Below, piece by piece: positions 10,533 through 49,879 of a DNA stretch of 64,000 bases. Location of the stretch: the NCBI RefSeq assembly GCF_027941915.1, contig NZ_CP116009.1, forward strand, positions 3,038,001 to 3,102,000. Reading direction: 5' to 3'. The notes under the pieces are model-generated. The model saw nothing but the letters and a program-made list of their open reading frames with translations. It had not been told where the DNA came from and did not search any database. Every line of letters begins with the position of its first letter. The stretch's first letter is position 1. A program made the translations under genes and the position numbers. The DNA comes from Ramlibacter tataouinensis (GTDB lineage Bacteria; Pseudomonadota; Gammaproteobacteria; Burkholderiales; Burkholderiaceae_C).

Positions 10533-10552
10533 CACATATACCTTTATTGTCC

Positions 10553-33385: not shown

Positions 33386-34669
33386 ATGGACAGAAAAATC
33401 GCAGTGGTGGGCCTGGGGTACGTGGGCTTGCCGGTGGCCGTTGCCTTCGGCCAGGCCCACCCGGTGGTCGGCTTCGACATCAAGGCAGCGCGCATCGCCG
33501 AGTTGAAGGCCGGCAGGGACAGCACCGAGGAGGTGGCCCCGGCCGACCTGGCCCGCGCCGACATCCTGTTCACCGACAGCGTCGATGAGCTGCGCTCGGC
33601 CGACTTCTTCATCGTGGCCGTGCCCACCCCGGTGGACTCGGGCAACAAGCCGGACCTCAGCCCGCTGGTCGGCGCCTCGCGCTCGGTCGGCAAGGCGTTG
33701 AAGAAGGGCGACATCGTGGTCTATGAATCGACGGTCTACCCCGGCGCCACCGAAGAAGACTGCATCCCGGTGCTGGAGCAGGTGTCGGGCCTGAAGTTCG
33801 GAACCGATTTCACGGTGGGCTACAGCCCCGAGCGCATCAACCCGGGCGACCGCGAGCACACCTTCACCAAGATCAAGAAGATCGTCTCCGGCTCCGACGC
33901 CCGCACGCTGGATGTCGTGGCCGGGGTCTACGGCTCGGTGGTCACCGCCGGCGTGCACCGCGCCAGCAGCATCAAGGTGGCCGAGGCCGCCAAGGTGATC
34001 GAGAACACCCAGCGCGACCTGAACATCGCGCTGATGAACGAGCTGGCGGTGGTGTTCAAGCGCATGGGCATCGACACGCTCGAAGTGCTGGAGGCCGCCG
34101 GCAGCAAGTGGAACTTCATCCACTCGCGCCCCGGCCTGGTGGGCGGCCACTGCATCGGCGTGGACCCGTACTACCTGACGCACAAGGCCGAGCAGCTGGG
34201 CTACATCCCGCAGGTGATCCTGGCCGGGCGCCGCATCAACGACAACATGGGCCGCTTCGTGGCGCACAGCACCATCAAGCTGATGCTGCGCAACAGCCAG
34301 GACGTGCCGCGCTGCCGGGTCGGCGTGCTGGGCATCACCTTCAAGGAGAACTGCCCCGACATCCGCAATTCCAAGGTGGCAGACGTGGTGCGCGAGCTGC
34401 GCGACTGGGGCGCCGAGGTGGTCGTGCACGACCCGCACGCCGACCCGCACGAGGTGCAGGAGGAGTACGGCATCGCCCTGGGGCGCATCGATGCGCAGAA
34501 CCCGGTCGATGCCCTCATCGTGGCGGTGGCGCACCGCGAGTTCAAGGCCATGAGACCGGCCGAGCTGCGCGCCCTGGTGCGCTGCGAGCGGCCGGTGCTG
34601 GCCGACGTCAAGTCCATCTTCCCGCGCGCGGAGCTGGAAGCCGCCGGCTTCACCGTGTGGCGGCTGTGA
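33386..34669 (+). CDS. wbpA: UDP-N-acetyl-D-glucosamine 6-dehydrogenase
   Basis: A 427-residue UDP-sugar dehydrogenase that oxidises UDP-GlcNAc to UDP-GlcNAcA with two NAD. N-terminal GLGYVG (residues 9-14), [17 protein letters not shown] and [12 protein letters not shown] are typical of the WbpA/TviB group. The catalytic cysteine is Cys256 in [11 protein letters not shown]. It is first of four consecutive genes for UDP-diacetamido-hexuronic acid synthesis. TviB/WbpO-type specificity for the same substrate cannot be separated by eye, but the following wbpB-D-E genes support WbpA. Confidence 0.92.
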
Positions 34670-34686
34670 GCGCGAGAGCTTTCCCC

Positions 34687-35742
34687 ATGAAGAACGCCAT
34701 CCAGGGCCGCAAGGTCCGCTTCGCCATCGTCGGCTGCGGCCGCATCGCCAAGAACCACATCGGCTCCATCCGCCAGCACGGCGACGACGCCGAGCTGGTG
34801 GGCGTGTGCGACATCGATCCCGCGGCGCTGCAGGCGGCGGTCAAGGAAACCGGCGCCAAGGGGTACGACCACATCGAGGCGCTGCTGGCCGACACCAACG
34901 CCGACGTGATCGTGCTGACCACGCCGAGCGGCATCCACCCCGCGCATGCCATCCTGTGCGCCAAGGCCGGCTTCCATGTGCTGAGCGAAAAGCCCATGGC
35001 CACCCGCTGGGAGGACGGCCTGCGCATGGTGCGCGCCTGCGACGAAGCCGGCGTGCGCCTGTTCGTGGTCAAGCAGAACCGGCGCAACGCCACGCTGCAG
35101 CTGCTGAAGCAGGCGGTGGAAGCGAAGCGTTTCGGGCGCATCTACATGGTGACGCTCAACGTGTTCTGGCAGCGGCCGCAGCAGGGTTACTACGACCAGG
35201 CCAAGTGGCGCGGCACCTGGGAGCTCGATGGCGGCGCCTTCATGAACCAGGCCAGCCACTACGTCGACCTGCTCGAGTGGCTGATCGGCCCCATCGAGAG
35301 CCTGCACGCCTACACCGGCACCCTGGCGCGCGACATCGAGGCGGAAGACACCGGCGTGCTCAGCTGCAAGTGGCGCAGCGGCGCGATGGGTTCGCTCAAC
35401 GTCACCATGCTGACGTACCCGAAGAACCTGGAAGGCAGCATCACCATCCTGGGCGAGAAGGGCACCGTGCGCGTGGGCGGCGTGGCCGTCAACGAGATCC
35501 AGCACTGGGAGTTCGAGGACAAGCGCCCGGAAGACGAATCCGTCAAGGCCGCCAGCTACGAAACCACCAGCGTCTACGGCTTCGGCCACCCGCTGTACTA
35601 CCGCAACGTGATCGACGTCATGCGCGGCCAGGCCGAGCCCGAAGTCGATGGCCGGGAAGGCCTGAAGTCGCTGGAGGTGCTGGTGGCGGCCTACCGCTCG
35701 GCGCGCGACGGCGTGCGCGTGAGCCTGCCGCTGGAGCTGTGA
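34687..35742 (+). CDS. wbpB: UDP-N-acetyl-2-amino-2-deoxy-D-glucuronate 3-dehydrogenase
   Basis: A 351-residue Gfo/Idh/MocA family oxidoreductase. It would oxidise C3 of UDP-GlcNAcA so that WbpE can install an amine. The Rossmann motif is [11 protein letters not shown] (residues 14-24). Lys102 in SEKPMA is the conserved catalytic lysine region, and [19 protein letters not shown] is the WbpB/WlbA hallmark. ATG at 34687 follows wbpA by 17 bases. Its stop overlaps the wbpD start by one base. Confidence 0.93.
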
Positions 35743-36320
35743 TGGGCTACACCGCGCACCCCTCCGCCATCGTCGACGAAGGCGCGCAGATCGGCGACGG
35801 CAGCCGCGTCTGGCACTTCGTGCACGTCAGCCCGGGCGCGCGCATCGGCCAGCGCTGCTCGCTGGGCCAGAACGTCTACGTCGGCAACGACGTCACCATC
35901 GGCGACAACGTCAAGATCCAGAACAACGTGTCGGTCTATGACGCGGTCACGCTGGAAGACGACGTGTTCTGCGGCCCCAGCATGGTGTTCACCAACGTGT
36001 ACAACCCGCGCTCGGCGGTCACGCGCAAGGACGAGTATCGCCGCACGCTGGTGAAGCGGGGCGCCACCCTGGGCGCCAACTGCACCATCGTCTGCGGCAC
36101 CACGATCGGCGAGTACGCCTTCGTCGGCGCCGGCGCCGTGGTCAACCGCGACGTGCCGGCGTTCGCGCTGATGGTCGGCGTGCCGGCCCGCCAGGCGGGC
36201 TGGATGAGCCGTTTCGGTGAGCGGCTGGACCTGCCGCTCACGGGCGACGCCGAGACGGTCTGCCCGCATACCGGCGAGCGCTATGTCCTGCGTGCCGGCG
36301 TCTGCAGCCTGCAAGCCTGA
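35742..36320 (+). CDS. wbpD: UDP-2-acetamido-3-amino-2,3-dideoxy-D-glucuronate N-acetyltransferase
   Basis: A 192-residue left-handed beta-helix acetyltransferase. It acetylates the 3-amino group to give UDP-GlcNAc3NAcA using acetyl-CoA. Hexapeptide repeats run through [20 protein letters not shown] to [34 protein letters not shown] is characteristic of WbpD/WlbB. The C-terminus has [15 protein letters not shown], an odd short two-cysteine tail also seen in some WlbB proteins. It starts within the wbpB stop codon. Confidence 0.93.
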
Positions 36321-36334
36321 GGGGAATCGAAAGA

Positions 36335-37465
36335 ATGAATGCCGTGCTGAAACCATCCGCACCCGACAAGATCCAGTTCATCGACCTGAAGGCGCAGTAC
36401 CAGGCGCTCAAGACCAGCATCGACGCGCGCATCCACAAGGTGCTGGACCACGGCCAGTACATCCTGGGCCCGGAAGTGGCGGAGATGGAAGCCCAGCTTG
36501 CCGCCTATACCGGCTCCAAGCACTGCATCAGCTGCGCGTCGGGCACCGAGGCGCTGCTGATGTCGCTGATGGCGCTGGGCATCGGCCCGGGCGACGAGGT
36601 GATCACCACCCCGTTCACCTTTGCCGCCACCGCCGAGATGATCGTGCTGGCCGGCGCCACGCCGGTGTACGTCGACATCGAGCCCGACACCTGCCTGATC
36701 GACGCCAGCAAGATCGAAGCGAAGATCACCTCGCGCACCAAGGCCATCATGCCGGTGTCGCTGTACGGTCAGGTGGCCGACATGGACGCGATCAACGCCA
36801 TTGCGGCGAAGCACGGCAACCTGGCCGTGATCGAGGACGCGGCCCAGAGCTTCGGCGCCACCTACAAGGGCCGCAAGAGCTGCAACGTCTCGACCCTCGG
36901 CTGCACCAGCTTCTTCCCGAGCAAGCCGCTGGGCTGCTATGGCGACGGCGGCGCCATCTTCACCAACGACGACGCGCTGGCCAAAACCCTGCGCGAGATC
37001 CGCACCCACGGTCAGGAGCGGCGCTACTACCACACCCGCATCGGCGTGGGCGGGCGCATGGACACCATCCAGTGCGCCGTCATCCTGGGCAAGCTCGAGC
37101 GCTTCGAGTGGGAGATCGAGCGGCGGCTGGCGCTGGGCGAGCAGTACCGGCAGAAGCTGGAGCAAGCCGGCGCCAAGGTCAAGCTGCTGACCGTGCGCCC
37201 CGACCGCGACTGCGTCTGGGCCCAGTACACCGTGTTCGTCGAGGACCGCGAGTCGGTGCAGAAGGCGCTGGCCGAGCAGGGCATTCCGACGGCGGTGCAC
37301 TACCCGCTGTCGCTCAACCGCCAGCCGGCCTACCGCGACGACGCATCGGCGGCGGAAACCGTGCACAGCCATCGGGCCGCGGAGCAGGTGATCAGCCTGC
37401 CGATGAGTGCGGATCTGACGGAAGAGCAGATGGACCGCGTGGTGGTGGCGGTCGCTGCAATCTGA
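36335..37465 (+). CDS. wbpE: UDP-2-acetamido-2-deoxy-3-oxo-glucuronate aminotransferase
   Basis: A 376-residue PLP-dependent sugar aminotransferase of the DegT/DnrJ/EryC1/StrS family. It transfers an amine from glutamate to the C3 ketone made by WbpB. Lys197 in FFPSKPLGCYGDGGA binds PLP. CASGTEALLMSLMALGIGPGDEV and EDAAQSFGA are conserved. It lies 14 bases after wbpD, completing wbpA-B-D-E. The next gene marks a visible drop in GC. Confidence 0.94.
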   Translation: MNAVLKPSAPDKIQFIDLKAQYQALKTSIDARIHKVLDHGQYILGPEVAEMEAQLAAYTGSKHCISCASGTEALLMSLMALGIGPGDEVITTPFTFAATAEMIVLAGATPVYVDIEPDTCLIDASKIEAKITSRTKAIMPVSLYGQVADMDAINAIAAKHGNLAVIEDAAQSFGATYKGRKSCNVSTLGCTSFFPSKPLGCYGDGGAIFTNDDALAKTLREIRTHGQERRYYHTRIGVGGRMDTIQCAVILGKLERFEWEIERRLALGEQYRQKLEQAGAKVKLLTVRPDRDCVWAQYTVFVEDRESVQKALAEQGIPTAVHYPLSLNRQPAYRDDASAAETVHSHRAAEQVISLPMSADLTEEQMDRVVVAVAAI

Positions 37466-37477: not shown

Positions 37478-38365
37478 ATGGAAACAAACAATACGGCGCG
37501 AAGCTTCCGGGACAAGTGGCACCGGAACACGGATCTGGTCTTCGCTGAAACCCTCCGGGAGGATTCGAGCATCCTGCGTTGGATTCTTGAGCGCAATGGA
37601 TGGGGCAGCCTGGACGCGTTGCGGCATTCACTGCGTGGCCGAGGGCGAATTCTGGACGCAGGCTGCGGGAATGGGCGGGTGACGGCTCTTCTGCGCCGAT
37701 GCACTGACCCGCAAAGCACGCAAGTGGTCGGAGTCGACCTCGTCTCACATGAAGTAGCCAGAGGCAATCTCGCCGATGCGCCCAATATGCAGTTCGGTCA
37801 GGCCGACCTTACGACTGACCTGACCCGACTCGGCCGTTTCGACTACATCTACTGCCAGGAAGTCCTGCACCACACCAGTGACCCGGCTAAGTCGTTCGGC
37901 AACCTGTGTGCCCTGCTGCAGCCGGGCGGCGAGATTGCGATCTACGTCTACAAAGTGAAGGCGCCGGTACGCGAATTGACCGACGACTACGTGCGCAGCA
38001 AGATCGCTGCCCTTCCATACGAAGAGGCGATGCGCCTGTGCGCGCAGGTCACGCAACTCGGAAAGGCACTCTCGGACCTGAACGCCAAGATCAGGGTTCC
38101 CGATGTCGAAGTCTTGGGGATCGAAGCCGGCGAGTACGACGTGCAACGCCTGATCTATAACGCCTTTGCCAAGTGCTTCTGGAATCCCGAACTCAGCACC
38201 GAGGCAAATGACTTGGTGAACTACGACTGGTACCACCCCCAGACAGCCACGCGTCACACGCTGGCCGAGGTGCGCGAGTGGTTCGCGCGCGAGGGCGTGG
38301 ACATCATCCATGAACACGTGGACCCCTACGGCATCACAGTCCGGGGTGTCCGCGCCAACACCTAA
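37478..38365 (+). CDS. Class I SAM-dependent methyltransferase
   Basis: A 295-residue methyltransferase with SAM-binding motif ILDAGCGNGRV near residue 58 and the post-motif EVLHHTSDPAKSF. The C-terminal half is a family-specific substrate domain (YDWYHPQTATRHTLAEVREWF), as in putative sugar or lipid methyltransferases of O-antigen loci. It begins 12 bases after wbpE, and base composition drops here. Target unknown. Confidence 0.85.
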   Translation: METNNTARSFRDKWHRNTDLVFAETLREDSSILRWILERNGWGSLDALRHSLRGRGRILDAGCGNGRVTALLRRCTDPQSTQVVGVDLVSHEVARGNLADAPNMQFGQADLTTDLTRLGRFDYIYCQEVLHHTSDPAKSFGNLCALLQPGGEIAIYVYKVKAPVRELTDDYVRSKIAALPYEEAMRLCAQVTQLGKALSDLNAKIRVPDVEVLGIEAGEYDVQRLIYNAFAKCFWNPELSTEANDLVNYDWYHPQTATRHTLAEVREWFAREGVDIIHEHVDPYGITVRGVRANT

Positions 38366-38369
38366 CACC

Positions 38370-39359
38370 ATGGACCTGAACGGAAAGAAGCTTCTTGTCA
38401 TCGGCGGTGCCGGGCTGATCGGCTCGCACACGGTCGACCAGTTGATCAAGGAAGACGTCGCAGAAATCCGCATCTTCGACAACTTCACGCGCGGCCGACT
38501 TGAAAACTTGGCGCAGGCAATGAAGGACCCTCGCGTGAAGGTGTTCCCGCTGGGGGGGGACATCCTGCACCGCGACATCCTGGATGCCGCAATGGAAGGC
38601 ATGGACGGGGTGTTCCACTTTGCGGCACTCTGGCTGCTCCACTGCCACGACTACCCGCGCTCTGCCTTCGAGGTGAACGTGGGTGGCACGTTCAACGTGC
38701 TGGAAGCGTGCGTCAAGCACAAGGTCAAGCGCCTGGTCTACTCCTCCTCGGCTTCCGTTTACGGTGATGCCGTCCAGGAGCCCATGGACGAGGATCATCC
38801 GTTCAACAACAAGAACTTCTACGGAGCGACCAAGATCTGCGGCGAGGCGATGGCGCGGGCTCTGCACCATCGCTATGGGCTGCCGTACGTCGGCCTTCGG
38901 TACATGAATGTGTACGGTCCGCGTGCCGATTACAGGGGTGCCTACATCGCGGTCATCATGAAGATGCTCGACGCGATCGACGCCGGCAAGGGCCCCACCA
39001 TCCTGGGTGACGGCACCGAGGCGTTCGACTTCGTTGCGGTGCAAGATTGCGGGCGGGCTAACGTGGCGGCGATGAAGGCCGACGTGGTTGACCGCTGCTA
39101 CAACGTGGGCACGGGCATCCGCACCTCGTTGAAGGAACTCGCCGAGATGCTGGTGGAACTCACCGGCTGCAAGTACGGGATCAACTACGCACCTCGGAGC
39201 CAAGCCACTCTGGTGCGCAACCGTATCGGGGATCCGAGGCGCGCCAAGGCGGAGATCGACTTTGAAGCTGGGATGGACCTGAGAACCGGGTTGGAAGAAT
39301 TGATTGCCTGGCGCAAGGCGCATATTGCCGAAGTGGAAGTGCGGCGTGCGCTTGCCTAG
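38370..39359 (+). CDS. NAD-dependent nucleotide-sugar epimerase/dehydratase
   Basis: A 329-residue extended SDR. N-terminal GGAGLIGSHTVDQL binds NAD; the catalytic set is SSSASVYGD with Tyr in NFYGATK. GLRYMNVYGPRADY and GTGIRTSLKELAEML are typical of UDP-glucose 4-epimerase-like enzymes. The start ATG at 38370 follows the methyltransferase stop by four bases. It probably epimerises a UDP-activated sugar; which carbon cannot be told. Confidence 0.87.
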   Translation: MDLNGKKLLVIGGAGLIGSHTVDQLIKEDVAEIRIFDNFTRGRLENLAQAMKDPRVKVFPLGGDILHRDILDAAMEGMDGVFHFAALWLLHCHDYPRSAFEVNVGGTFNVLEACVKHKVKRLVYSSSASVYGDAVQEPMDEDHPFNNKNFYGATKICGEAMARALHHRYGLPYVGLRYMNVYGPRADYRGAYIAVIMKMLDAIDAGKGPTILGDGTEAFDFVAVQDCGRANVAAMKADVVDRCYNVGTGIRTSLKELAEMLVELTGCKYGINYAPRSQATLVRNRIGDPRRAKAEIDFEAGMDLRTGLEELIAWRKAHIAEVEVRRALA

Positions 39360-39416
39360 TGGCGCCGAACGGCTGGCTAGCAGCCTCGATGGGTGTGGCA
39401 GACACACTGGATTGAT

Positions 39417-41288
39417 ATGTGCGGCATTGCGGGTCTACTGAAGCTGGATGGCTCGACGGTTGACCCTATGGCTGTCGACCGGATGGGGCGCGCGTTGGCG
39501 CACCGCGGGCCCGATGGTGAGGGCAGATATGTCGAAGGCCCGATCGGGTTTGCCCATCGTCGACTCGCAATCATTGACCTCACCCCGGCAGCCGCGCAGC
39601 CGTTCTCGGATCCCAGCGGTCGATTCACGGTCGTCTACAACGGCGAGTTGTACAACTACCGTGAGCTGCGACGGGAACTGATTTCGCTAGGCCGCGTGTT
39701 CCGGACAGCGAGTGATACGGAGGTCCTGCTCGAGGCATTCAAGCAATGGGGTCCTGGAGCCGTCCAGCGATTCAACGGGATGTTCGCGTTCGCAATTTGG
39801 GACCGCGCGCAACGACGTCTCTTCCTGGCACGGGACAGGTACGGAGTGAAGCCGCTGTACACCTTCCACAAAGGAGGCGAATTCTTGTTTGCCTCCGAGC
39901 CCGTGGCGATCACGCAGCATGCCAATGCTGGCTCGGGTTTGGCTGTGGACGGCCTGGTTGAGTATCTGACATTCCAAAATTTCTTTTCGGACAGGACGAT
40001 CTATAGAGACGTCCGGATGTTCCCTGCCGGCTGCTGGGGAAGCATTTCGCCGGAGCAAGGCGAACTTGTTGTCAACCGGTACTGGGACTTCAACTTTGTT
40101 GAGCAACACGAAGTGGGCAGCGAAGCTGAAACGTGCGAGCGTCTGCGCCTACTGCTCAACCAAGCAGTCAGCCGGCAACTGGTCAGTGACGTGGAGGTCG
40201 GCGCGTATCTGAGCGGGGGCATCGACTCCGGTTGTGTGACTGCGCTTGCGGCACGGCAACTTCCCTACCTGAAAAGCTTCACGTGTGGATTTGACCTGCA
40301 CTCGGCAAACGGCATCGAGGTGGCGTTCGATGAGCGAGAGCGCGCGGAGCACATGTCGTACCTTTACAAGACCGAGCACTATGAAATGGTGCTGAAGTCG
40401 GGCGACATGGAGCGAGTCATGCCCAAGCTGATGCGTCACATGGGTGAGCCCCGGGTCGGCCAGTCCTATCCAAACTATTACGTGGCAGGCCTCGCGAGCA
40501 AGTTCGTGAAGGTCGTGCTGACGGGAACGGGCGGCGACGAGTTGTTCGGAGGCTATCCGTGGCGCTACTACACGCCTGAATCGGACGCCGACTTCGACTC
40601 CTACGTCGATGGCTACTATGGATATTGGCAGCGCCTGGTGCCGCCGGAGCTGATGCCGGAACTTCTGGCTCCAGTATGGTCGGAAGCCAAGCACGTCGAC
40701 ACCCGTGACTTGTTCAAGAGCGTCTTCGGTTCGCACCCGGCGCGCCTGCGCACGCGAGCAGACTATGTGAACAGCGCTCTGTACTTCGAGGCCAAGACGT
40801 TCCTTCACGGATTGCTGGTGGTCGAGGATAAATTGAGCATGGCGCACGGCCTGGAGTCGCGAGTTCCCTTCCTTGACAACGATCTTGTCGACTACGCCAT
40901 GACGCTACCGGTTTCCATGAAGCTCGCTGCGCGTCACAACGAGAGAATCGATGAGAACATGGCGGGTCCGAAGACGGAGCAGTTCTTCCAGCAGACTCAC
41001 GACGGCAAGCTGATCCTGCGTCAGGCGGTGGAAGAGTGGATGCCTAAGGTTGTCACGCAAGCGGCCAAGCAAGGCTTCTCCGCGCCGGATGCCAGTTGGT
41101 TCCGCGGCGAGAGCCTTGAGTACGTCAAGCGTTGTCTTCTTCGACCAGCCGCAAAGATCAACGAGGTTCTCAATCCCGCCGTTGTCGCAAGGCTGTTGGA
41201 TGAACACATGACCGGCCAGCGCAACCGGCGCCTTTTGATCTGGTCGTTGCTCTGCCTGGAGCACAGCGACTTCGAGGCAGCGACCTGA
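39417..41288 (+). CDS. Asparagine synthetase-like amidotransferase (copy 1)
   Basis: A 623-residue glutamine-hydrolysing AsnB-family protein. Cys2 (MCGIAGLL) is the glutaminase nucleophile, HRGPDGEG and YNGELYNYRELR complete that domain, and SGGIDS (residues 266-271) is the ATP-pyrophosphatase loop of the synthetase domain. In surface-polysaccharide loci such proteins often convert uronic acid carboxyls to amides. Alone it could make asparagine, but this is the first of three copies within 21 kb, next to uronic-acid genes. It is coupled by a one-base overlap to an epimerase. Confidence 0.9.
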   Translation: MCGIAGLLKLDGSTVDPMAVDRMGRALAHRGPDGEGRYVEGPIGFAHRRLAIIDLTPAAAQPFSDPSGRFTVVYNGELYNYRELRRELISLGRVFRTASDTEVLLEAFKQWGPGAVQRFNGMFAFAIWDRAQRRLFLARDRYGVKPLYTFHKGGEFLFASEPVAITQHANAGSGLAVDGLVEYLTFQNFFSDRTIYRDVRMFPAGCWGSISPEQGELVVNRYWDFNFVEQHEVGSEAETCERLRLLLNQAVSRQLVSDVEVGAYLSGGIDSGCVTALAARQLPYLKSFTCGFDLHSANGIEVAFDERERAEHMSYLYKTEHYEMVLKSGDMERVMPKLMRHMGEPRVGQSYPNYYVAGLASKFVKVVLTGTGGDELFGGYPWRYYTPESDADFDSYVDGYYGYWQRLVPPELMPELLAPVWSEAKHVDTRDLFKSVFGSHPARLRTRADYVNSALYFEAKTFLHGLLVVEDKLSMAHGLESRVPFLDNDLVDYAMTLPVSMKLAARHNERIDENMAGPKTEQFFQQTHDGKLILRQAVEEWMPKVVTQAAKQGFSAPDASWFRGESLEYVKRCLLRPAAKINEVLNPAVVARLLDEHMTGQRNRRLLIWSLLCLEHSDFEAAT

Positions 41289-42175
41289 TGGCCAAGCTGC
41301 TGGTCGTTGGAGGAACCGGACTGATCGGCTCCGAGGTTGTCCGCCAGGCAAGGACACTGGGACATGTGGTCACGATGTTGTCCCGCGACGCAAAGGGCAT
41401 TGATGGTCGCGTCATCGTCGGTGACTTGAGGCAACCGCATAGCCTAGAGGGTCTGTTGCGTGGAGAGCACTTCGACGCGATCGTGTACCTTGCGCAGGCC
41501 GCAAGTCACAACGCTTTTCCAGGCAATGCCACGGATGCGGTGGCAGTCAACATCTCTGCGCCCGTTGCGCTGTGCCAGTGGGCGGTGAACAGCGGTTGCG
41601 ACCGATTCATCCTCGGCTCATCCGGGGGAATCTGCGGACCCGCGCACGGGCTCGAGCGAATCACCGAGAGTTCGGGCCGGCAGCCGCCAGAGAGGCTGAA
41701 TTTCTATCTCTCGACCAAGGCGCGCTGTGAGGAGTTGCTCGTGGCGTTCGGTGGCCTGCTGAAAATAGATGTACTGAGGTACTTCTTCGTGTATGGCCGG
41801 ACACAGAGGCCAGACTTCCTCTTTCCCAGGCTGATCGAAAAGATGAAGTCGGGACAAGCCATAGAACTCGCGGGGGGCGAAGGGCCTTGGCTGAATCCGA
41901 TCCATGCCAGAGATGCCGCCTCGCTGACCATTCGCGCCCTTGAGTCTTCTGTGGGAGGGGTGACCAACGTGGCCGGCCTGGAGGACATGACGTTGCGTGC
42001 GTTGGTCGGCGCGCTCGAGCAAGCTGTCGGGACTCGTGCGAAGGTCGTCCCCACCGATGAGCGGCCTCCTCGCTTCCTTGCGGACACAAGCCTAATGCTG
42101 AAGAAGCTGGGTACGCCCGAAATCACGCTGGACAAAGGGATCGCCATGTCATTCGCTCAGGAGCCAAGAGAGTGA
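41288..42175 (+). CDS. NAD-dependent epimerase/dehydratase family protein
   Basis: A 295-residue extended SDR with VGGTGLIGSEV at the N-terminus, GSSGGICG at the catalytic serine position, and Tyr-x3-Lys as YLSTK. It has lower similarity to standard sugar epimerases than the gene at 38370. Start and stop codons overlap both neighbours (one and four bases), so it is co-translated with AsnB and the methyltransferase. It probably modifies the same nucleotide sugar. Confidence 0.82.
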   Translation: MAKLLVVGGTGLIGSEVVRQARTLGHVVTMLSRDAKGIDGRVIVGDLRQPHSLEGLLRGEHFDAIVYLAQAASHNAFPGNATDAVAVNISAPVALCQWAVNSGCDRFILGSSGGICGPAHGLERITESSGRQPPERLNFYLSTKARCEELLVAFGGLLKIDVLRYFFVYGRTQRPDFLFPRLIEKMKSGQAIELAGGEGPWLNPIHARDAASLTIRALESSVGGVTNVAGLEDMTLRALVGALEQAVGTRAKVVPTDERPPRFLADTSLMLKKLGTPEITLDKGIAMSFAQEPRE

Positions 42176-43032
42176 GATTTTGTGGACGCGAGCTGACAAT
42201 TCAGGATAGCTCGGAATCGCTGGCGGTCGAGCAGGTCCGGGAGCGCGGCAGGTGCGGGCAGTTCATGCCTTTTGACGAGCTGCTCCACCTTCTGCGCGAT
42301 CCAATTACAAAAGGGCCGCTTGTTAGTGGAGGCGACCACCTGACGGCCAATGGTCGCGTGTACCCCATTGTGCGAGGCAATCCGCACTTGTTCCCATGTG
42401 AGATGGACCGAGTGAGGGCGGCCCTGTCCCAGCCAGGGTTGCTCGACCGATTCCCAGATCTGCTGCCCATTGAGCAGTACTGTGCCTTCGGCCTCCTGAA
42501 ATCGTCGGGCGCAACTAACCTCGACTACGCGGACCTGTGGTACGGACGGCATCTCCATCGTGCGAGCAAACTCCTGAGCAACGCGCGCGGGACATTTCTG
42601 GATGTGGGCTGCGACGACGCTTTCCTCAGCCGGGGCATGCTTGCAGACCAGGTTCAGTACGTCGGCCTGGAGCCTTCAGCCGGCTCTTCCGAGGGGCTGC
42701 GGGTTTGCGGGCTGGGTGAATTCCTGCCCTTCGCGGACCAAAGCTTTGATGGCGTCGGCTTCCAGACGTCGTTAGACCATGTATTCGACTACCAGTTGGC
42801 GCTAGCGGAGGCGCGCAGGGTGCTCCGCCCAGGTGGGCGCCTGTATCTCGCTACCTTGTTGTGGACCGACAAGGCGCAACTGTATACGGACACTGCACAT
42901 TTCCATCATTTCAGGGGCGCGCAAGTCGAGGCAGTCCTGGCCGACGGATTCGAAGTTGAGCAAGTCGATGCGTACGTCTGGAAGGGAAATACCCATCGAT
43001 TCGGCGTCTACATGACTGCGATTAAGAAGTGA
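42172..43032 (+). CDS. Class I SAM-dependent methyltransferase with N-terminal Trm112-like segment
   Basis: A 286-residue protein. Residues about 35-75 (LLHLLRDPITKGPLVSGGDHL...VYPIVRGNPHLFP) resemble a Trm112-type segment with its cysteines missing. The methyltransferase core follows (FLDVGCDDAFLSRG, EARRVLRPGGRLYL). Motif I lacks the usual second glycine pair. GTG at 42172 overlaps the previous stop as GTGA. Target unknown; probably a glycan or sugar nucleotide. Confidence 0.8.
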   Translation: MRFCGRELTIQDSSESLAVEQVRERGRCGQFMPFDELLHLLRDPITKGPLVSGGDHLTANGRVYPIVRGNPHLFPCEMDRVRAALSQPGLLDRFPDLLPIEQYCAFGLLKSSGATNLDYADLWYGRHLHRASKLLSNARGTFLDVGCDDAFLSRGMLADQVQYVGLEPSAGSSEGLRVCGLGEFLPFADQSFDGVGFQTSLDHVFDYQLALAEARRVLRPGGRLYLATLLWTDKAQLYTDTAHFHHFRGAQVEAVLADGFEVEQVDAYVWKGNTHRFGVYMTAIKK

Positions 43033-43036
43033 GTAG

Positions 43037-43756
43037 ATGGAAACGCAGAACTTCACGGAAGAGGAATATCGGCGGCTGCTGGAGCTTACCCAGCGGCAAT
43101 ATGCCTTCGCCTCGTACTTGACTGCTCCGGAGCAGCCGCACGTCATACTGCGCCATGACCTCGATACCTCCTTGCAGCGCGCTCTGGCGCTCGCCAAGAT
43201 CGAAGCTTCTCTCGGCATTCGGGCAACGTATTTCCTGTTTCCAAGAAGCCTTTACTACAACCTGCTCCATCCCGAAAGCAAGGCGGTTGTTCGCCAAATC
43301 CTTGATTTTGGCCATGCAATCGGCCTGCATTTCGATGTTTCCATGGAGTACGAGCCAGAAGAGCTGGCGCCGCTTCTCCAGCATGAGAAACGGCTACTGG
43401 AGATCGAGTTCGGAAGGTCCGTCGAAGCCGTCAGCTTCCATTTGGCGGGAGACTTTCAGTCCCGACTTCCGTCCGAGCACGTGGTATGTGGGATGGTAAA
43501 CGCCTACTCCGAGCAGATGCGGCTTGGCTACAAGTACCTTTCGGACTCAAATGGTGTCTGGAGATTCGAGAACTGGGAAGAGATTCTTGATTCGTCGAAG
43601 TACCCACGGCTGCAAATCCTCGTGCACCCGGAATGGTGGACCCCGCAATCGCTGACGCCAAAGCAACGCTTGCAACGCGCCATCGATGGGTACGCAAGGC
43701 GGATGGGAGGTTGGTACGACGAGGTGACAAGGGCCTATGGACGTCCCAACTATTGA
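43037..43756 (+). CDS. Polysaccharide deacetylase-fold protein
   Basis: A 239-residue protein with the NodB-type metal motif HDLD (residues 40-43), then IRATYFLFPRSLYY, IGLHFDVSMEYE and a C-terminal LVHPEWW. These match carbohydrate esterase 4-like proteins found in O-antigen loci. There is no signal peptide, so it would act in the cytoplasm on a nucleotide sugar or lipid-linked sugar, perhaps removing an N-acetyl group that the following GNAT could replace with another acyl group (inference). Confidence 0.78.
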   Translation: METQNFTEEEYRRLLELTQRQYAFASYLTAPEQPHVILRHDLDTSLQRALALAKIEASLGIRATYFLFPRSLYYNLLHPESKAVVRQILDFGHAIGLHFDVSMEYEPEELAPLLQHEKRLLEIEFGRSVEAVSFHLAGDFQSRLPSEHVVCGMVNAYSEQMRLGYKYLSDSNGVWRFENWEEILDSSKYPRLQILVHPEWWTPQSLTPKQRLQRAIDGYARRMGGWYDEVTRAYGRPNY

Positions 43757-44261
43757 AGAAGGTTCGGTGGTTCTTCGGCCGCTGACCGACGCGGATTCCG
43801 ATGCGCTTTTCCGTTGGATCAACGACCATGACACCGTCGTTTTCAATGCGCCATTCGCGCCGGTGGAGCGTGAAGCTCACGAACGCTGGTTCGAGCGCGT
43901 CCGCGCTTCAACGAGCATTGCGATATTCGGGATCATGGAGCGACACACCAGAGCGCTTGTGGGCAGTTGCCAGCTCCTGAACATCTCGCCTCTGCACCGG
44001 AGTGCGGACCTGCAGATCCGGCTTGGCGAGCCGGCGGCACGAGGCCGAGGTCTGGGAACGGACGCAGTACGTGGACTTGTTCACTTCGGCATGACCCAGC
44101 TGAAATTGCACCGTATCGCACTCACGGTTCGAGCAGACAACGAGCGAGCGATCCGGGCTTATGTGAAATGTGGCTTCCAGAGAGAAGGGCTGTTGCGAGA
44201 AGCCGCCTTTATCGAAGGCCGTTTCGTGGATCTGATCGGCATGGCAGTGCTCGCGTCATGA
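43737..44261 (+). CDS. GNAT-family N-acyltransferase
   Basis: A 174-residue RimJ/RimL-type acyltransferase. VVLRPLTDADSDALFRWIND opens the fold, LGEPAARGRGLGTDAVRGL contains the acyl-CoA-binding R/Q-x-x-G-x-G/A loop, and RADNERAIRAYVKCGFQREG is motif B. The ATG overlaps the deacetylase gene by 20 bases; a GTG at 43767 would remove the overlap. Next to a deacetylase-fold gene it probably acylates a free amino group on a sugar. Donor unknown. Confidence 0.85.
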   Translation: MDVPTIEEGSVVLRPLTDADSDALFRWINDHDTVVFNAPFAPVEREAHERWFERVRASTSIAIFGIMERHTRALVGSCQLLNISPLHRSADLQIRLGEPAARGRGLGTDAVRGLVHFGMTQLKLHRIALTVRADNERAIRAYVKCGFQREGLLREAAFIEGRFVDLIGMAVLAS

Positions 44262-44956
44262 GCCGCGTCACAGCCATTCACCAGCCGAACTTCTTCCCCT
44301 GGCTTGGCTACTTCGACAAGATCGCGCAATGCGATGTCTTTGTCGTGCTGGACGACGTCCAGTACCAGAAAACCGGCAGCAACTGGTCGAATCGGGTGAA
44401 GCTGCTTTTGGCGGGCGAGCCGCGCTGGGTCACGGCGCCCGTCCGCAGGCCGGCGCACGGCACGGCGAAGATCGATGAACTCTCCTGGGCGCAGGAGCCC
44501 TGGCGCGAGAAGTTGATGCGAAGCCTGACCATGAACTATGGCAGTGCCCGCTTCTTTCGGGAGACCATGGAGCTGATCGAGCCACTGGTGCGCAACGAAG
44601 AGCCGATGCTTGCGGCGTACAACCTGCGTGCTATCCGGGCCATCTGCGAAGCGCTCGGCCTGCAGCGGAGTTTCGTGCTTTCCTCCAGCTTCCATGTTGA
44701 GACCGCATCGAATGAGCGCCTGATATCGCTGTGTCGGCACGTGGGGTGCGACATTTACCTCACCGGTGGCGGCGCGCAGGACTACCAACAGGACGAGCTG
44801 TTCGTGAACGCGGGCATCCAGGTCCGCCACCAGGATTTCCAGCATCCGCGCTATCCGCAGGCAGGCTGCGGCGACTTCGTCCCTGGTCTGTCGGTCATCG
44901 ACGCGCTCATGAATTGCGGAATCGACGGCACAAGAAAGGTGATGGGAGTTGCATGA
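44258..44956 (+). CDS. WbqC-family protein
   Basis: A 232-residue protein of the WbqC family, recognised by IHQPNFFPWLGYFDKI at the N-terminus, LDDVQYQKTGSNWSNRVKL, and YLTGGGAQDYQ. The family recurs in O-antigen and amino-sugar loci but has no settled reaction. ATG at 44258 overlaps the GNAT stop as ATGA. In this operon it may work with the AsnB, deacetylase and GNAT proteins on an N-acyl side chain. Confidence 0.85.
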   Translation: MSRVTAIHQPNFFPWLGYFDKIAQCDVFVVLDDVQYQKTGSNWSNRVKLLLAGEPRWVTAPVRRPAHGTAKIDELSWAQEPWREKLMRSLTMNYGSARFFRETMELIEPLVRNEEPMLAAYNLRAIRAICEALGLQRSFVLSSSFHVETASNERLISLCRHVGCDIYLTGGGAQDYQQDELFVNAGIQVRHQDFQHPRYPQAGCGDFVPGLSVIDALMNCGIDGTRKVMGVA

Positions 44957-45002
44957 CGACTGCTGCACGCTCCCGCACGGCGCGAAGGACGCCACTCCAG
45001 TC

Positions 45003-46691
45003 ATGAAGCAATGGGCACGCTGGTGCAGCGCAAAGCTGAAGAAGGCCGCTGCTGCGCTGCAAGGCTTGGCGGCCCCGGTGCTGAAATCGGTGGCACAGCC
45101 GGCCGTCCGTGTCGTCGAGGCGTCGGCTAGGCGTGCTCTGCGGCGGCTCGAGGCCATGCAGGCCGACCAGATGAAGGCCTTGGAAGGACACGCGGAAGTC
45201 CTGATGGACAAGCTGCACCGTACCGTAAGCGGCCAGGTGGCCTTTACGACGGGCCATGCGCACCTGCTGGGCGAACTGCAGCGCGCCAAGGCGCAGAAGG
45301 ATTCTCGCCTGCTGCCCAATCTTGATCTCTCCGAGCGCGTCCGATCCATCGTGCGCAAGCACGCCGGTTTGCCCCCCGTTGTGACAGGTGACGAGGGCAA
45401 GAACGATCTGACGACGGAGTTGCGGTTCCTGTGGGACAACAGCGCCTTGGTCCGCCAGATGCTCGAGCTCTGTGCCGGACGACGCGTGCTGTACTCGGGG
45501 CAGTGCTACTACAACCATTGGTATCTCTCGCGCGAATTGCGCAAGCTTGGCTGGAGGGCGGATGTGCTGAACTGGGACCCGAATCCGGCCTCCCAGATCT
45601 ATTACCACGGGGAGGACTTCCGCTATGTCGGGGTCCCCGAAGAAGATTTGCAGATGCTGCGATTCTTCGTCCAGGCACTCTACGGCTACGACGTTTTCCA
45701 CTTCAGCAATGCCCACGGAATCAGCTTCGGGTCGGCACTTGCATCCATCGTGACACCGCTGTTTGGCGAGCGCGGCGAGATCTACCTGTTGAAGGAACTC
45801 GGGAAGAAGGTCGCCTACACGAACAACGGCTGTCTCGACGGCGTGTCGCAGACTGCGTTCTCGCGGTGGGGGCCGGATTCCGTGTGTGCGATTTGCCGCT
45901 GGCGAAATGAACCTGCGGTGTGCAGCGATGAGCTCAATCTGCGATGGGGCCGATTTCGCAACTCAGTGAGCGACTACCAGTGCCTGCTGGGAGGCAATCG
46001 GGTCGACTTCAACGACGATCCGCGGGTCCACGAATCGCCCTGGGTGTACTGCCTCGATCCGGATATGTGGAAGCCGGGCCTCGACATCCCCGAACCGTTC
46101 CGGATCGAGCGGCGCTCCGAAAAGACCCTGCTGCTCTACCACGCGATCGGGAACAAGCAGGACCGCACCACCGACGAAGGCGTGAACATCAAGTCCTCCC
46201 ACGTGTACCTTCCGTTGCTACAGAAGCTCAGGGACGAGGGTTGGGACCTGGAGCTGCTGGAGCCGACCGGCGTCCCCAACAAGGACGTTCGTTTCATCCA
46301 GGCGCAGGCGGATATCTTCCTGGAGATGTTGACCTTCGGCTGGTTCGGCGCGAATGCGCGTGAAGCCATGATGCTGGGCAAGCCCGTCGTCTGCTTCATC
46401 CGGCCTGAATGGCTGGACAGTCTGCGGGAGGAACTGCCCGATTACGCGGATGAGTTGCCAATCGTGAGCGCGACTCCGGAGACCGTCGAGAGCGTGCTGG
46501 TCGATCTGATGGGCGACGAAGGCAAGCGCCGCGAGATCGGCCGCCGGAGCCGCGAATTCATGCTGCGCTGGCACTCCGCGCCGGTCGCGGCAGCCAAGTT
46601 CGAGGAGATCTACGGCCGGCTGATTGCCGGCGAGCCGCTGCTGCGCAAGACGGCGCATGGGGCTGGGCGGACGGCTCGGCTGGGTGACTAG
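45003..46691 (+). CDS. Glycosyltransferase-like protein, GT-B fold
   Basis: About 562 residues from ATG 45003; an in-frame TTG at 44949 would add 18 residues. The N-terminal 100 residues are Ala-rich helices (KKAAAALQGLAAPVL, VRVVEASARRALRRLEAM). The middle and C-terminal parts read like a glycosyltransferase family 1/4 GT-B fold: YSGQCYYNHWYLSRELRKLGWRADVLNWD, then LLYHAIGNK, WDLELLEPTGVPNKDV, and AREAMMLGKPVVCFIRPEWL near the nucleotide-sugar site. A Cys-rich stretch (SVCAICRWRNEPAVC) sits mid-protein and could bind metal. It is last gene of the low-GC block. Confidence 0.75.
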   Translation: MKQWARWCSAKLKKAAAALQGLAAPVLKSVAQPAVRVVEASARRALRRLEAMQADQMKALEGHAEVLMDKLHRTVSGQVAFTTGHAHLLGELQRAKAQKDSRLLPNLDLSERVRSIVRKHAGLPPVVTGDEGKNDLTTELRFLWDNSALVRQMLELCAGRRVLYSGQCYYNHWYLSRELRKLGWRADVLNWDPNPASQIYYHGEDFRYVGVPEEDLQMLRFFVQALYGYDVFHFSNAHGISFGSALASIVTPLFGERGEIYLLKELGKKVAYTNNGCLDGVSQTAFSRWGPDSVCAICRWRNEPAVCSDELNLRWGRFRNSVSDYQCLLGGNRVDFNDDPRVHESPWVYCLDPDMWKPGLDIPEPFRIERRSEKTLLLYHAIGNKQDRTTDEGVNIKSSHVYLPLLQKLRDEGWDLELLEPTGVPNKDVRFIQAQADIFLEMLTFGWFGANAREAMMLGKPVVCFIRPEWLDSLREELPDYADELPIVSATPETVESVLVDLMGDEGKRREIGRRSREFMLRWHSAPVAAAKFEEIYGRLIAGEPLLRKTAHGAGRTARLGD

Positions 46692-46803: not shown

Positions 46804-47946
46804 ATGCCGCAACTGGCCGTTTCTGTAGAAGGCATTACGAAGCACTTTCCGAAGGCAGGTCGGCTACGGGTCCGGGAACTGCTCACAGGCTTGCCGCCCG
46901 AGAGGCGCTTCACCGCCATCGATGGCATCAGCCTGGACGTGCCGAAGGGCGAGGTCGTCGGCGTGCTGGGGCGCAACGGCGCCGGCAAGAGCACGCTGCT
47001 GCGGCTGGTCGGCGGGATCTATTCGCCGGATTCAGGCGCGATCGCGCTGAACGGCCATGTCGCGGGCTTGTTCGAGATGGGTGGATTCGGCAACACCCAG
47101 TTGACCGGCCGGGAGTTCGCCAACCGCTATCTGCAACTCTTCGGTGTTTCCCGGGCCCAGCGCGAGGCCGTCGTGGCCGAGGTCCGGGAGTTTGCCGAGC
47201 TGGGCGACTACTTTGATCAGCTGATTCGGACCTACTCGGCCGGCATGGCGGCCCGGCTGTACTTTGCGACAGCAACGGCGATCCCCCATGAGATATACCT
47301 GATCGACGAAATCCTGTCCGTGGGCGACGAGCATTTCCAGGCCAAGTCCTGGGCCCGCATGCGCGAGCGGCTGGCCAGCGGTGCGTCGGGCCTGCTCGTC
47401 ACCCACGACTGGTCGGCCGTGATCCGGCTGTGTCGCGAGTCGAAGGTGCTCGAGCGCGGCCGGATCCTGCTTCAGGGGCGATCGGACCGCGTGGTCGCCG
47501 ACTACCTGCAGCTGCCTCGGCCCGCCGCCGACCGCGCACGGCTGGCTGCCGCGCCGGGTGAGCGGCTGCAGGCGTCGAGCGGTCGCGCGTGCGCCCTCGA
47601 TCTCGAACTCGAGATCCTGGCGCCGGGCCCGGTCGAGCTCGCTGTGTCCATCGAGGCCCTGCAGCTCGGAACGGGTTGGGAGCCCGTCATCCTGACCGAG
47701 TTCCAGCCCGTGGCCAGCTCTCCCGGACGCTACCGGGCGACCGTGCGCATCGAGGCACTGCCACTTCGCGCCGGCGAGTACACCCTGAACGTATTCCTGG
47801 CGACACCGCCGGATTCGTCCGGCGTGCGAGAGACCCTGGATGTGCGTGGTTGGACCTACGGCAACGCGATGACGTTGGCGGTGGACGGCGAGCCCGGAGG
47901 CGGCATTGCGCCTTTCGCGGTGCGCTGGACGGAAGTGGCCCGATGA
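46804..47946 (+). CDS. wzt: Polysaccharide ABC exporter ATP-binding protein (Wzt-like, copy 1)
   Basis: A 380-residue ATPase of the Wzt/TagH export type. Walker A is GRNGAGKST (residues 56-64), the signature is YSAGMAARLYF, Walker B is IYLIDEILSVGDE, and the H-loop is VTHDW. The C-terminal 140 residues form an extra beta-rich domain like the Wzt carbohydrate-binding domain. It overlaps the next ATPase gene by four bases. The preceding 112-base gap has no clear promoter, though composition returns to high GC. Confidence 0.9.
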   Translation: MPQLAVSVEGITKHFPKAGRLRVRELLTGLPPERRFTAIDGISLDVPKGEVVGVLGRNGAGKSTLLRLVGGIYSPDSGAIALNGHVAGLFEMGGFGNTQLTGREFANRYLQLFGVSRAQREAVVAEVREFAELGDYFDQLIRTYSAGMAARLYFATATAIPHEIYLIDEILSVGDEHFQAKSWARMRERLASGASGLLVTHDWSAVIRLCRESKVLERGRILLQGRSDRVVADYLQLPRPAADRARLAAAPGERLQASSGRACALDLELEILAPGPVELAVSIEALQLGTGWEPVILTEFQPVASSPGRYRATVRIEALPLRAGEYTLNVFLATPPDSSGVRETLDVRGWTYGNAMTLAVDGEPGGGIAPFAVRWTEVAR

Positions 47947-49091
47947 TGGCGCTGCACATCCAGGCTGAGCGGCTTGCCAAGGCCTACGACCTCGGACAGG
48001 GCGTTGCCCCCAAGATGGCGCTTGATGGCGTCAGCCTGAACATTGCCGAGGGCGAGCGAGTGGGCCTCATCGGTCGCAATGGAGCGGGCAAGACGACTCT
48101 GCTCCAGCTGGTGAGCGGCATCGCGCAGCCCACCGGTGGGCGGCTGGACGTTCAAGGCCAGGTCACCGCCATCTTCACGCTGGGCATGGGGCTGCGCGAC
48201 GACCTGACGGGCAGGCAGAACATCGAGGTCGAAGGCGAGCTGCTGGGGCGTACCCGTGAGCAGACCGCGGCGCTCGCCGACGACATCATCAACTTCGCTG
48301 AGTTGGGTGAGTTCATCGACCGGCCGGTGCGCACCTATTCGACCGGCATGAAGGCCCGCCTGGCGTTCTCGACGATCGTCCACATCGAGCCGGAGATCCT
48401 GATCGTGGATGAGGCCTTGTCCGTGGGCGACGCTCGCTTCTCGGAGAAGGCAACCGCCAAGATGCGCGAACTGGCCGCGCGTGGTCGGATCCTGATTCTG
48501 GTGTCCCATTCGATGCGCGCCATCCAGGAGATGTGCACGCGCTGCATCTGGATGGACGAGGGCCGGGTGCGGATGGACGGTCCGCCCGCCCAGGTGACGC
48601 AGGCCTACCTTGACGAAGTCCATCGAGCCGACGAGGCGCTGCTTCTCGAACGCTTCCGGCGCGAAGTGACCGACGTTTCAGTGCGCGAGGGATTCCGTGT
48701 GGAGTCCCTCGACATGCTGGGCCACGAAGGCATTGCCGCGCTGTCACTGCAGACCGGAGAGCCGGCTGCCGTGGCCGTGCGCCTAACCGCCCCTGCAGGA
48801 TTGCCGGTGCATGTGAGGCTACGGGTGGAGCGCCTGGACGCGCTGGATGTCCTCGACTCGGGCATGGATCTGGAGCCTGGTGCGGCCGGGCAGCGGGAGC
48901 TCCGGGTCGACTTAGGGTACCTGCCGCTCAATGCCGGCGTGTTCAAGCTGCGGATCGACCTCGAGTGCGACGGGAGGCCCGCGGCGACCCGCTCGACAGT
49001 GTTCGAAGTGCTCAATCCAAACCCGCTGAAGGGAGGCCGACCCATTCTGGTTGTCCCTGCGCGCTGCGACATCACCCCCCTGGCTCCATGA
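47943..49091 (+). CDS. Polysaccharide ABC exporter ATP-binding protein (Wzt-like, copy 2)
   Basis: A 382-residue second Wzt-like ATPase. Walker A is GRNGAGKTT (residues 44-52), signature YSTGMKARLAF, Walker B ILIVDEALSVGDAR, H-loop VSHSM, and a C-terminal beta-rich domain of about 140 residues. Both copies keep all catalytic motifs, so each could be active. Only one permease gene follows, with a four-base overlap, so a heterodimeric exporter is possible. The C-terminal domains differ, which could mean different glycan ends are recognised. Confidence 0.9.
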   Translation: MMALHIQAERLAKAYDLGQGVAPKMALDGVSLNIAEGERVGLIGRNGAGKTTLLQLVSGIAQPTGGRLDVQGQVTAIFTLGMGLRDDLTGRQNIEVEGELLGRTREQTAALADDIINFAELGEFIDRPVRTYSTGMKARLAFSTIVHIEPEILIVDEALSVGDARFSEKATAKMRELAARGRILILVSHSMRAIQEMCTRCIWMDEGRVRMDGPPAQVTQAYLDEVHRADEALLLERFRREVTDVSVREGFRVESLDMLGHEGIAALSLQTGEPAAVAVRLTAPAGLPVHVRLRVERLDALDVLDSGMDLEPGAAGQRELRVDLGYLPLNAGVFKLRIDLECDGRPAATRSTVFEVLNPNPLKGGRPILVVPARCDITPLAP

Positions 49092-49879
49092 CCCTGTTCG
49101 GATTCGATCGCCGCGACGCGGCCACCGTCTGGAATTTCTTTCGGATGTTCCTGCGCGACCGCTTCCTCGGCTCGCGCCTGGGCACCGTATGGGCTGTGCT
49201 CAACCCGGTGCTGATGCTGACCACTTACACCTTTGTGTTCGGTTTCGTCTTCAAGGCGAAGCTGCCGGGTGCGGACACCACGCTGGCCTATGCCACCTGG
49301 CTGATCGCCGGTTACGGTCCCTGGCTGGCTATCAGCGAGTCGCTCAACTCAGCGGCGCAGTCTGTCACCGGCAACAGCGGACTGGTGAAGAACATGGCGT
49401 TCAAGACCGAATGCCTGCCGCTGGCATCCAGCATGCTGGGCCTTGTGCCGCTCTCCATCAGCATCGTGTTCGCACTTGTGCTGCTGACGGTTGACGGCAA
49501 CGCCCCCACCTGGCACGCACTGGCTGCCATACCGGGTGTGCTGCTGAGCTTCGCGTTCCTGGCGGCGCTCGGGGTGGGCCTTGCCGTGTTCACCGTGTTC
49601 GTCCGCGACTTCGCGCTGATCCTTCCCAACCTGCTGTTGATCCTGCTGTTTGCCTCACCCATCTTCTACCCGGTCGAGGCAATGCCGAGTTTGCTGAAAA
49701 ACGTGGCGCAGTGGAATCCATTCTTCTTGATGGCCGAGTTCGTCCGGCAACCGCTGATGTTCCATGTCGTCCCGCACTGGAGCCAGTGGACGTACGTCGC
49801 CGCACTGACGGCGCTCATCGGCAGCTTCAACCTCATCCTGTTCCGCCGCCTCAAGGGCAGCCTTTCCTCCTTGCTCTGA
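49088..49879 (+). CDS. wzm: Polysaccharide ABC exporter permease (Wzm-like)
   Basis: A 263-residue ABC-2 type integral membrane protein with about six hydrophobic segments. FFRMFLRDRFLGSRLGTVWAVLNPVLML is the conserved N-terminal amphipathic gate and first helix; the C-terminal half contains LLFASPIFYPVEAMP, the family's lumen-facing motif. It moves undecaprenyl-linked glycan to the periplasm, powered by the Wzt-like ATPases encoded just upstream. No Wzx/Wzy genes appear in the window, supporting ABC-dependent export. Confidence 0.9.
   Translation: MTLFGFDRRDAATVWNFFRMFLRDRFLGSRLGTVWAVLNPVLMLTTYTFVFGFVFKAKLPGADTTLAYATWLIAGYGPWLAISESLNSAAQSVTGNSGLVKNMAFKTECLPLASSMLGLVPLSISIVFALVLLTVDGNAPTWHALAAIPGVLLSFAFLAALGVGLAVFTVFVRDFALILPNLLLILLFASPIFYPVEAMPSLLKNVAQWNPFFLMAEFVRQPLMFHVVPHWSQWTYVAALTALIGSFNLILFRRLKGSLSSLL

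Follow-up and report, generated by a model that had tools for sequence, protein, structure and literature searches.

A nine-gene candidate sugar-tailoring module with a WbqC-family protein in a Bordetella-like O-antigen locus of Ramlibacter tataouinensis

The DNA analysed here, referred to as the window, is a stretch of 64,000 nucleotides from Ramlibacter tataouinensis (contig NZ_CP116009.1, positions 3,038,001 to 3,102,000). Between positions 37478 and 46691 it carries an island of nine co-directional genes, and all the families that a first, sequence-only reading had named there were found to be encoded:

37478 to 38365, plus strand: MT1, an S-adenosylmethionine-dependent methyltransferase and the first gene of the island; Pfam Methyltransf_23 and others.
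About 38370 to 39359, plus strand: SDR1, a short-chain dehydrogenase/reductase (SDR), nucleotide-sugar C4 oxidoreductase or epimerase; Pfam Epimerase, YGATK catalytic motif.
About 39417 to 41288, plus strand: AsnB1, a glutamine-dependent amidotransferase; Pfam GATase_7 and Asn_synthase.
41288 to 42175, plus strand: SDR2, a second SDR; Pfam Epimerase, YLSTK motif.
42172 to 43032, plus strand: MT2, a methyltransferase coupled to SDR2; Pfam Methyltransf_11.
43037 to 43756, plus strand: a predicted sugar N-deacetylase of CE4/NodB fold, from a family without a Pfam model.
43737 to 44261, plus strand: GNAT, a PseH-like acetyltransferase; Pfam Acetyltransf_3.
44258 to 44956, plus strand: a WbqC-family protein (PF08889, E 8e-68), a proposed BshC-like ligase acting on a free sugar amine.
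44949 to 46691, plus strand: a GT-B-like glycosyltransferase with an N-terminal extension, a candidate cap transferase.

The joints between these genes measure, in order, +4, +57, -1, -4, +4, -20, -4 and -8 bp; seven of the eight overlap or lie at most 4 bp apart, as had been described, the exception being the 57 bp gap 5' of AsnB1. AsnB1 starts with MCGIAGLL and has therefore retained the glutaminase cysteine. It likely forms a C6 carboxamide, which supports the amide formation first ascribed to it. The GNAT reached 60.5 bits against TIGR03585, under that model's cut-off of 93.1.

A search with the window deacetylase as a single sequence found no related loci. A profile search with an alignment of six deacetylases found 105 relatives, and 80 loci (L026-L105) were analysed. 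These span about 15 phyla, with Pseudomonadota, Bacteroidota, Ignavibacteriota, Cyanobacteria, Campylobacterota, Chloroflexota, Acidobacteriota, Bacillota, archaea and others represented. The genes are not scattered in these relatives: an order of SDR, AsnB, tailoring genes, deacetylase, acyltransferase, WbqC and glycosyltransferase recurs far beyond the genus, with the tailoring and acyltransferase positions variable. Clusters of open reading frames (ORFs) were counted for AsnB in 65 loci, DegT in 57, SDR in 56, WbqC in 54 (which leaves out the L026 copy, an over-long ORF), the GT-B family in 48, formyltransferase in 43 and Wzt in 37. The AsnB1 type was found in 51 of 60 full loci, and AsnB1-deacetylase-WbqC kept this order in 37 of the 46 loci having all three. 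All nine families occur in L035, L040 and L086; the Bacteroidota loci L035 and L040 have nearly the gene order of the window, MT1 alone being moved, at 27-58% identity, with MT1 itself at 58%. The grouping first noticed is real and is more than chance, and the interpretation given to it is partly supported.

Two rules of exchange were apparent within the module, judged by association tests that treat related loci as independent, so that their p values are rough and overstate certainty. Beside AsnB1, DegT was found in 30 loci and SDR2 in 12, never both (51 loci, p 2e-6), and SDR2 occurs with MT2 (p 7e-8). These alternatives are read as 4-amino versus 4-hydroxy, methylated sugars, the window being of the second kind. 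The gene 3' of the deacetylase was a formyltransferase in 19 loci, a hexapeptide transferase in 10 and a GNAT in 9, and GNAT and formyltransferase avoid one another (p 1.5e-4). Such exchange among three unrelated families of acyltransferase bears out the idea that deacetylation is followed by re-acylation. Some loci (L057, L074) have two consecutive deacetylase-formyltransferase pairs, an arrangement that fits two different amines. Elsewhere (L070, L080, L088, L093 and others) an alternative cassette of ATP-grasp and metallophosphoesterase genes, often with a methyltransferase, lies between AsnB1 and the deacetylase, and in a Nitrospirota locus a radical SAM/SPASM protein (L076 8829-9977) is encoded directly 5' of the deacetylase.

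The deacetylase has no Pfam family above cut-off, and its first label as a deacetylase-fold protein proved right by predicted structure, which has the NodB (CE4) fold at a predicted local distance difference test score (pLDDT) of 93.7. The model gave a Foldseek E of 2e-5, Z 13.0 to PplD, and Z 10.4 to Bordetella WbmS (3hft) over 179 residues. Residues D41, D43, H98, H135 and H197 are invariant in 62 deacetylase sequences, 21 of which weakly match Polysacc_deac_1. A "WbmS-like" label was dropped, since PF22537, the WbmS family, gives no match to the window protein up to E 10; nor does it figure in the 25 families listed for the 62 relatives at E 1. No signal peptide was apparent when the sequence was read by eye, and the protein is probably cytoplasmic. 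Longer deacetylases with a C-terminal extra of about 200 residues occur in L050, L053, L057, L070, L073, L080, L081 and L088 (about 9995-11400); four long forms searched against Pfam (L050, L053, L070 and L098) had no match.

WbqC proteins are annotated in many bacteria yet functionally uncharacterised (PMC5532660). The window protein scores 229 bits against PF08889 (cut-off 21.3), and its structure was predicted with a pLDDT of 95.7 and a predicted template modelling score of 0.92. The best structural match of this model, by VIA-align, is BshC (4wbd), with Z 14.6 at 3.1 A over 220 of 232 residues; the next are tRNA synthetases and adenylyltransferases at Z of about 8 (best 8.1), and models without a clear match typically reach a best Z of 7 to 8. 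At its start, the alignment sets the N-terminal HQPN motif of WbqC near the GGQQ motif of BshC. By eye, and without statistics, HQPN pairs with GQQ and YLxGGGAxxYQ with YVGGPGExxY, and in the wider WbqC family the one residue that looks constant is the Gln of the first motif. The role of acyl or aminoacyl transferase first suggested for WbqC gains structural support from this match. In bacillithiol synthesis BshC is presumed to join cysteine to GlcN-malate once the deacetylase BshB has acted; in mycothiol synthesis deacetylation by MshB is followed by ligation of cysteine by MshC and acetylation by MshD (PMC4360819), the MshC ligation being ATP-dependent (PMC9736012). The island would have in common with both pathways that a GlcNAc unit is N-deacetylated and an amino acid joined to its amine, and with mycothiol synthesis also the acetylation (PMC4360819). 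It differs in that its substrate would be a polysaccharide sugar and not a thiol precursor, and in that its deacetylase has the CE4 fold and not that of PIG-L. BshC also has about 540 residues with a coiled-coil dimerisation domain, whereas WbqC has 232 and no long coiled coil in the model.

A set of 25 WbqC loci was chosen independently of the deacetylase; WbqC was present in 23 of 274 genomes of the host's class. DegT lies directly 5' of WbqC in 8 of the 25 loci, where random placement would give 2.0 (p 0.0004); in 15, a DegT or deacetylase gene lies within 2 kb of WbqC. The set includes a second WbqC gene of the host itself, about 3.29 Mb along its genome, which belongs to an SDR-DegT-methyltransferase-WbqC group without this deacetylase (L016 9326-14523). 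Genes for PIG-L deacetylases, the fold family of MshB and BshB, adjoin WbqC in L135 and L142. On plasmid pJCM12687 of Mycobacterium branderi the order is DegT-SDR-DegT-GNAT-WbqC-PIG-L deacetylase, the genes overlapping or nearly so (L151 5084-7406 for the last three). This case was picked from the list for its GNAT overlapping WbqC and is an illustration, not a test; its GNAT, WbqC and PIG-L genes are a possible parallel to MshD-MshC-MshB. A pairing of WbqC with DegT is also found in a Dickeya flagellar island (PMC9650423). With DegT, CE4-fold and PIG-L proteins as neighbours, WbqC therefore accompanies three unrelated families of amine-forming enzymes.

We tentatively propose, at somewhat less than even confidence, that WbqC proteins are widespread BshC-like ligases coupling amino or other carboxylic acids to sugar amines, and that deacetylase, WbqC and GNAT form a mycothiol-like cascade writing variable N-aminoacyl groups on surface polysaccharides, the deacetylases (CE4, PIG-L), aminotransferases and acyltransferases being interchangeable. 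Several results weigh against this proposal. Foldseek alone gave WbqC no significant match (best E 0.009), and comparison of the WbqC and BshC (PF10079) profiles was not significant (hhalign E 0.07-0.19, probability <1%). A single structural alignment carries the link to BshC, and many enzymes have the HUP core; from the model, likeness of fold is established and homology is not. The activity of BshC had itself not been shown in vitro as of one review (PMC4360819), and a literature search found no paper linking WbqC with BshC. WbqC is also absent from 4 of the 15 full-length loci with a formyltransferase 3' of the deacetylase and from all 4 with a hexapeptide transferase there, and re-acylation therefore does not always need it.

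In an alternative that we hold to be less likely, WbqC is no ligase, the GNAT (elsewhere the formyl or hexapeptide transferase) re-acylates the amine directly, and WbqC does another step, such as binding or transferring the finished sugar. The swapping of three acyltransferase types right 3' of the deacetylase would be enough for re-acylation, WbqC matches no solved protein at the level of sequence, and associations with Wzt (p 0.0035) and with the GT-B family, GT580 (p 0.007), were found for it. Against this, WbqC also occurs with Wzx in place of Wzt and, where this deacetylase is missing, beside DegT or PIG-L genes, and the BshC fold match spans the whole protein. None of the 10 loci in which a hexapeptide transferase directly follows the deacetylase has WbqC, which ties it to the acylation step. 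All 18 GNAT loci have it. Two simpler roles were rejected: a protein serving ABC export only, as Wzx loci have WbqC, and merely one more exchangeable acyltransferase, as WbqC co-occurs with either GNAT or formyltransferase.

The island lies between genes of recognisable O-antigen function:

33386 to 34669, plus strand: UDP-GlcNAc 6-dehydrogenase, WbpA-type, which would make the precursor; Pfam UDPG_MGDP_dh domains, host-like composition.
34687 to 35742, plus strand: Gfo/Idh 3-dehydrogenase, WlbA/WbpB-type; match to the Gfo/Idh cluster profile, E 2e-153.
35742 to 36320, plus strand: hexapeptide N-acetyltransferase, WlbB/WbpD-type; Hexapep domains.
36335 to 37465, plus strand: DegT 3-aminotransferase, WbpE/WlbC-type; best PDB match WbpE 3nu7, E 6e-131.
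46804 to 47946, plus strand: Wzt1, O-antigen ABC transporter ATPase; Pfam ABC_tran.
47940 to 49091, plus strand: Wzt2, a second ABC ATPase; Pfam ABC_tran; the ORF opens at 47589 and the start is approximate.
49088 to 49879, plus strand: Wzm, O-antigen ABC permease; Pfam ABC2_membrane; the ORF opens at 48965 and the start is approximate.
60060 to 61031, plus strand: SDR, orthologue of a Bordetella O-antigen SDR; PDB 2q1w, E 3e-159.
61028 to 61969, plus strand: SDR, likely WbmG-type, the type being given by its family and its position between two Bordetella-like SDR genes; Pfam Epimerase.
61960 to 63051, plus strand: SDR, orthologue of a Bordetella O-antigen SDR; PDB 2pzj, E 7e-138.

The four genes directly 5' of the island have the families of the known Pseudomonas aeruginosa WbpA-B-E-D route to UDP-GlcNAc3NAcA, and by homology would carry out its reactions; that route supplies the precursor only and has none of the tailoring genes of the island. 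A single WlbA-WlbB fusion at 34806-36320 was considered and rejected, there being two genes in different frames. On the 3' side follow the Wzt-Wzt-Wzm genes, more glycosyltransferases, two more AsnB genes and the three SDR genes. The two consecutive Wzt-type ATPases with one Wzm (46804-49091) suggest an asymmetric O-antigen transporter, and at least two Wzt genes were present in 25 of the 37 Wzt-bearing loci. The further AsnB genes lie at 53538-55427 and at 58060-59964, the latter adjoining the Bordetella-like SDR genes, and probably amidate another residue.

GC content of the nine island genes is 0.558-0.631 versus about 0.71 at 1-30 kb, and at third codon positions (GC3) it is 0.63-0.81 versus 0.955 (standard deviation 0.013) in 14 upstream genes. 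The 60-base counts from which the poorer GC was first noted, 28 (43201-43260) and 40 (9121-9180), proved exact. The left edge at 37478 is sharp, GC3 dropping from 0.93 in DegT to 0.75 in MT1. On the right, GC3 stays low (0.66-0.87) through the transporter and glycosyltransferase genes to 59964 and is back at 0.92-0.94 at 60060. Position 46691 is therefore no compositional edge, and the island makes up the left portion of a longer variable middle, which ends near 60 kb and not at 46.7 kb as first drawn. The genes on either side, at 33386-37465 (GC3 0.95 for the 6-dehydrogenase, 0.94 for the hexapeptide N-acetyltransferase) and at 60060-63051, are host-like in composition.

Comparison with other genomes of the genus revealed a mosaic. 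In comparison with sister genome G326, identity is mostly 84-91% for the flanks and SDR1, 79% for AsnB1 and 55-74% from SDR2 through Wzt2. Against sister genome G317, SDR1 is at 91% (89-91% across the sister genomes), AsnB1 at 59%, the deacetylase at 36%, the GNAT at 68% and WbqC at 62%; G317 has a DegT gene 5' of AsnB1 and no match to SDR2 or MT2. In a Ramlibacter metagenome-assembled genome a formyltransferase-like gene fills the GNAT slot between deacetylase and WbqC, and on the opposite strand lie a second formyltransferase and a deacetylase of the PF22537 cluster. Exchange within the genus runs gene by gene. The arrival by transfer that had been suggested is thus supported both by composition and by the mosaic of identities. 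The explanation we favour, its proposed chemistry included and with confidence a little better than even, is that these nine genes serve to tailor sugars within an O-antigen locus of the ABC-transporter type and are exchanged horizontally. Low GC could instead have arisen in an old resident locus through relaxed selection or local mutation bias, with no transfer, and SDR1, AsnB1 and the deacetylase are indeed also somewhat low in GC3 in G326 (0.82-0.88). We regard this as very improbable given the sharp step at 37478 and the return at 60060, the 36-79% identity of many island genes between flanks at 84-91%, the replacement of whole genes at one place in sister genomes, and a module common to several phyla.

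PDB entries 2q1w and 2pzj we take to be WbmH and WbmF. Of the genes that mark a wbm-type locus, the window accordingly has orthologues of WbmF and WbmH, recognised by PDB search, and probably one of WbmG, judged by position and family. King et al. proposed that WbmF, G and H make UDP-L-GalNAc3NAcA (PMC2279256). Like the Bordetella wbm locus (variable region A, wbmO-wbmZ), the window combines O-antigen SDR orthologues with ABC-type export genes (PMC3849452, PMC2279256) and has a CE4-type deacetylase gene in a low-GC, exchanged middle, serotype-variable in Bordetella, between conserved flanks. In Bordetella, the genes of this middle have low GC and are swapped among strains, and a role in modifying the terminal sugar is predicted for them (PMC3849452). 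Unlike that of the wbm locus, the deacetylase of the window gives no PF22537 match, and the window carries WbqC, GNAT, SDR2 and MT2; it looks like a Bordetella-like architecture with other contents. The pathway is not a separate one as first supposed; the island belongs to the variable middle of a wbm-like locus, with precursor genes flanking it, and is better framed as a conserved cross-phylum cassette within it. As for the claim that the pathway was undescribed, this stands for the WbqC reaction and the deacetylase family, and falls for the idea of variable terminal-sugar modification, described for Bordetella (PMC3849452).

From the observed gene content, gene order, exchange of acyltransferases and predicted folds we infer a pathway, the order of its steps included, that would act either on a nucleotide sugar or at the chain end. 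The flanking host-like genes would supply UDP-GlcNAc3NAcA and turn it into the L-galacto form that the chain uses, as their Pseudomonas and Bordetella homologues suggest. SDR1, SDR2 and the methyltransferases would remodel a diacetamido uronic sugar and add methyl groups, probably around C4, and AsnB1 would turn the C6 acid of this sugar into a carboxamide. The CE4-fold deacetylase may then remove one N-acetyl group, at C2 or C3, freeing an amine to which WbqC would ligate an amino acid or other carboxylic acid. The GNAT would acetylate the new amino group, giving an N-acetyl-aminoacyl substituent, or re-acylate the sugar amine directly. Amino acids do occur as N-substituents of O-antigen sugars, for example glycine in S. 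dysenteriae D7 (PMC10609480), and N-acetyl-aminoacyl groups of the proposed kind are known from O-antigens (PMC10609480, PMC3210612). The GT-B protein would transfer the completed sugar, most probably to cap the chain end, before export by Wzm-Wzt.

The profile of the GT-B family (46 members) matches TreT at E 1e-5 over the C-terminal half only. The family is associated with Wzt (p 0.001), the module adjoins Wzt-Wzt-Wzm in the window, and the Bordetella middle genes predicted to modify the terminal sugar correlate with serotype (PMC3849452); all three points favour a cap over decoration of the O-chain repeating unit or of another surface glycan, which we consider a minority possibility. The cap reading is weakened by 8 of the 60 full loci, which have a Wzx flippase and no Wzt, so that the sugar is not always a cap. 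It is weakened too by the Wzt proteins of the window, both of about 380 residues, in which Pfam at E 0.001 detected only ABC_tran (with a sub-cut-off AAA_21 in one) and no carbohydrate-binding domain. The three AsnB genes of the locus, moreover, indicate that amidation is not confined to one residue. A capped O-antigen is known from Aquifex aeolicus, where a methyl cap is read by Wzt (PMC9445017). The window resembles that system in having methyltransferase genes with Wzm and Wzt and a cap probably made before export, and differs in its two Wzt genes, in their lack of a Pfam-detected carbohydrate-binding domain and in a cap chemistry that would be far more complex.

The proposed WbqC reaction is the part worth following. 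The match to the BshC fold and the recurring amine-forming partners give WbqC a concrete, assayable reaction, and this reading may also help with BshC, whose in vitro activity was not shown (PMC4360819). The acyltransferases that replace one another at a single position of the operon would amount to a readable code for the N-acyl group of the surface glycan, and its prediction is relevant to serology, phage receptors and glycan engineering.

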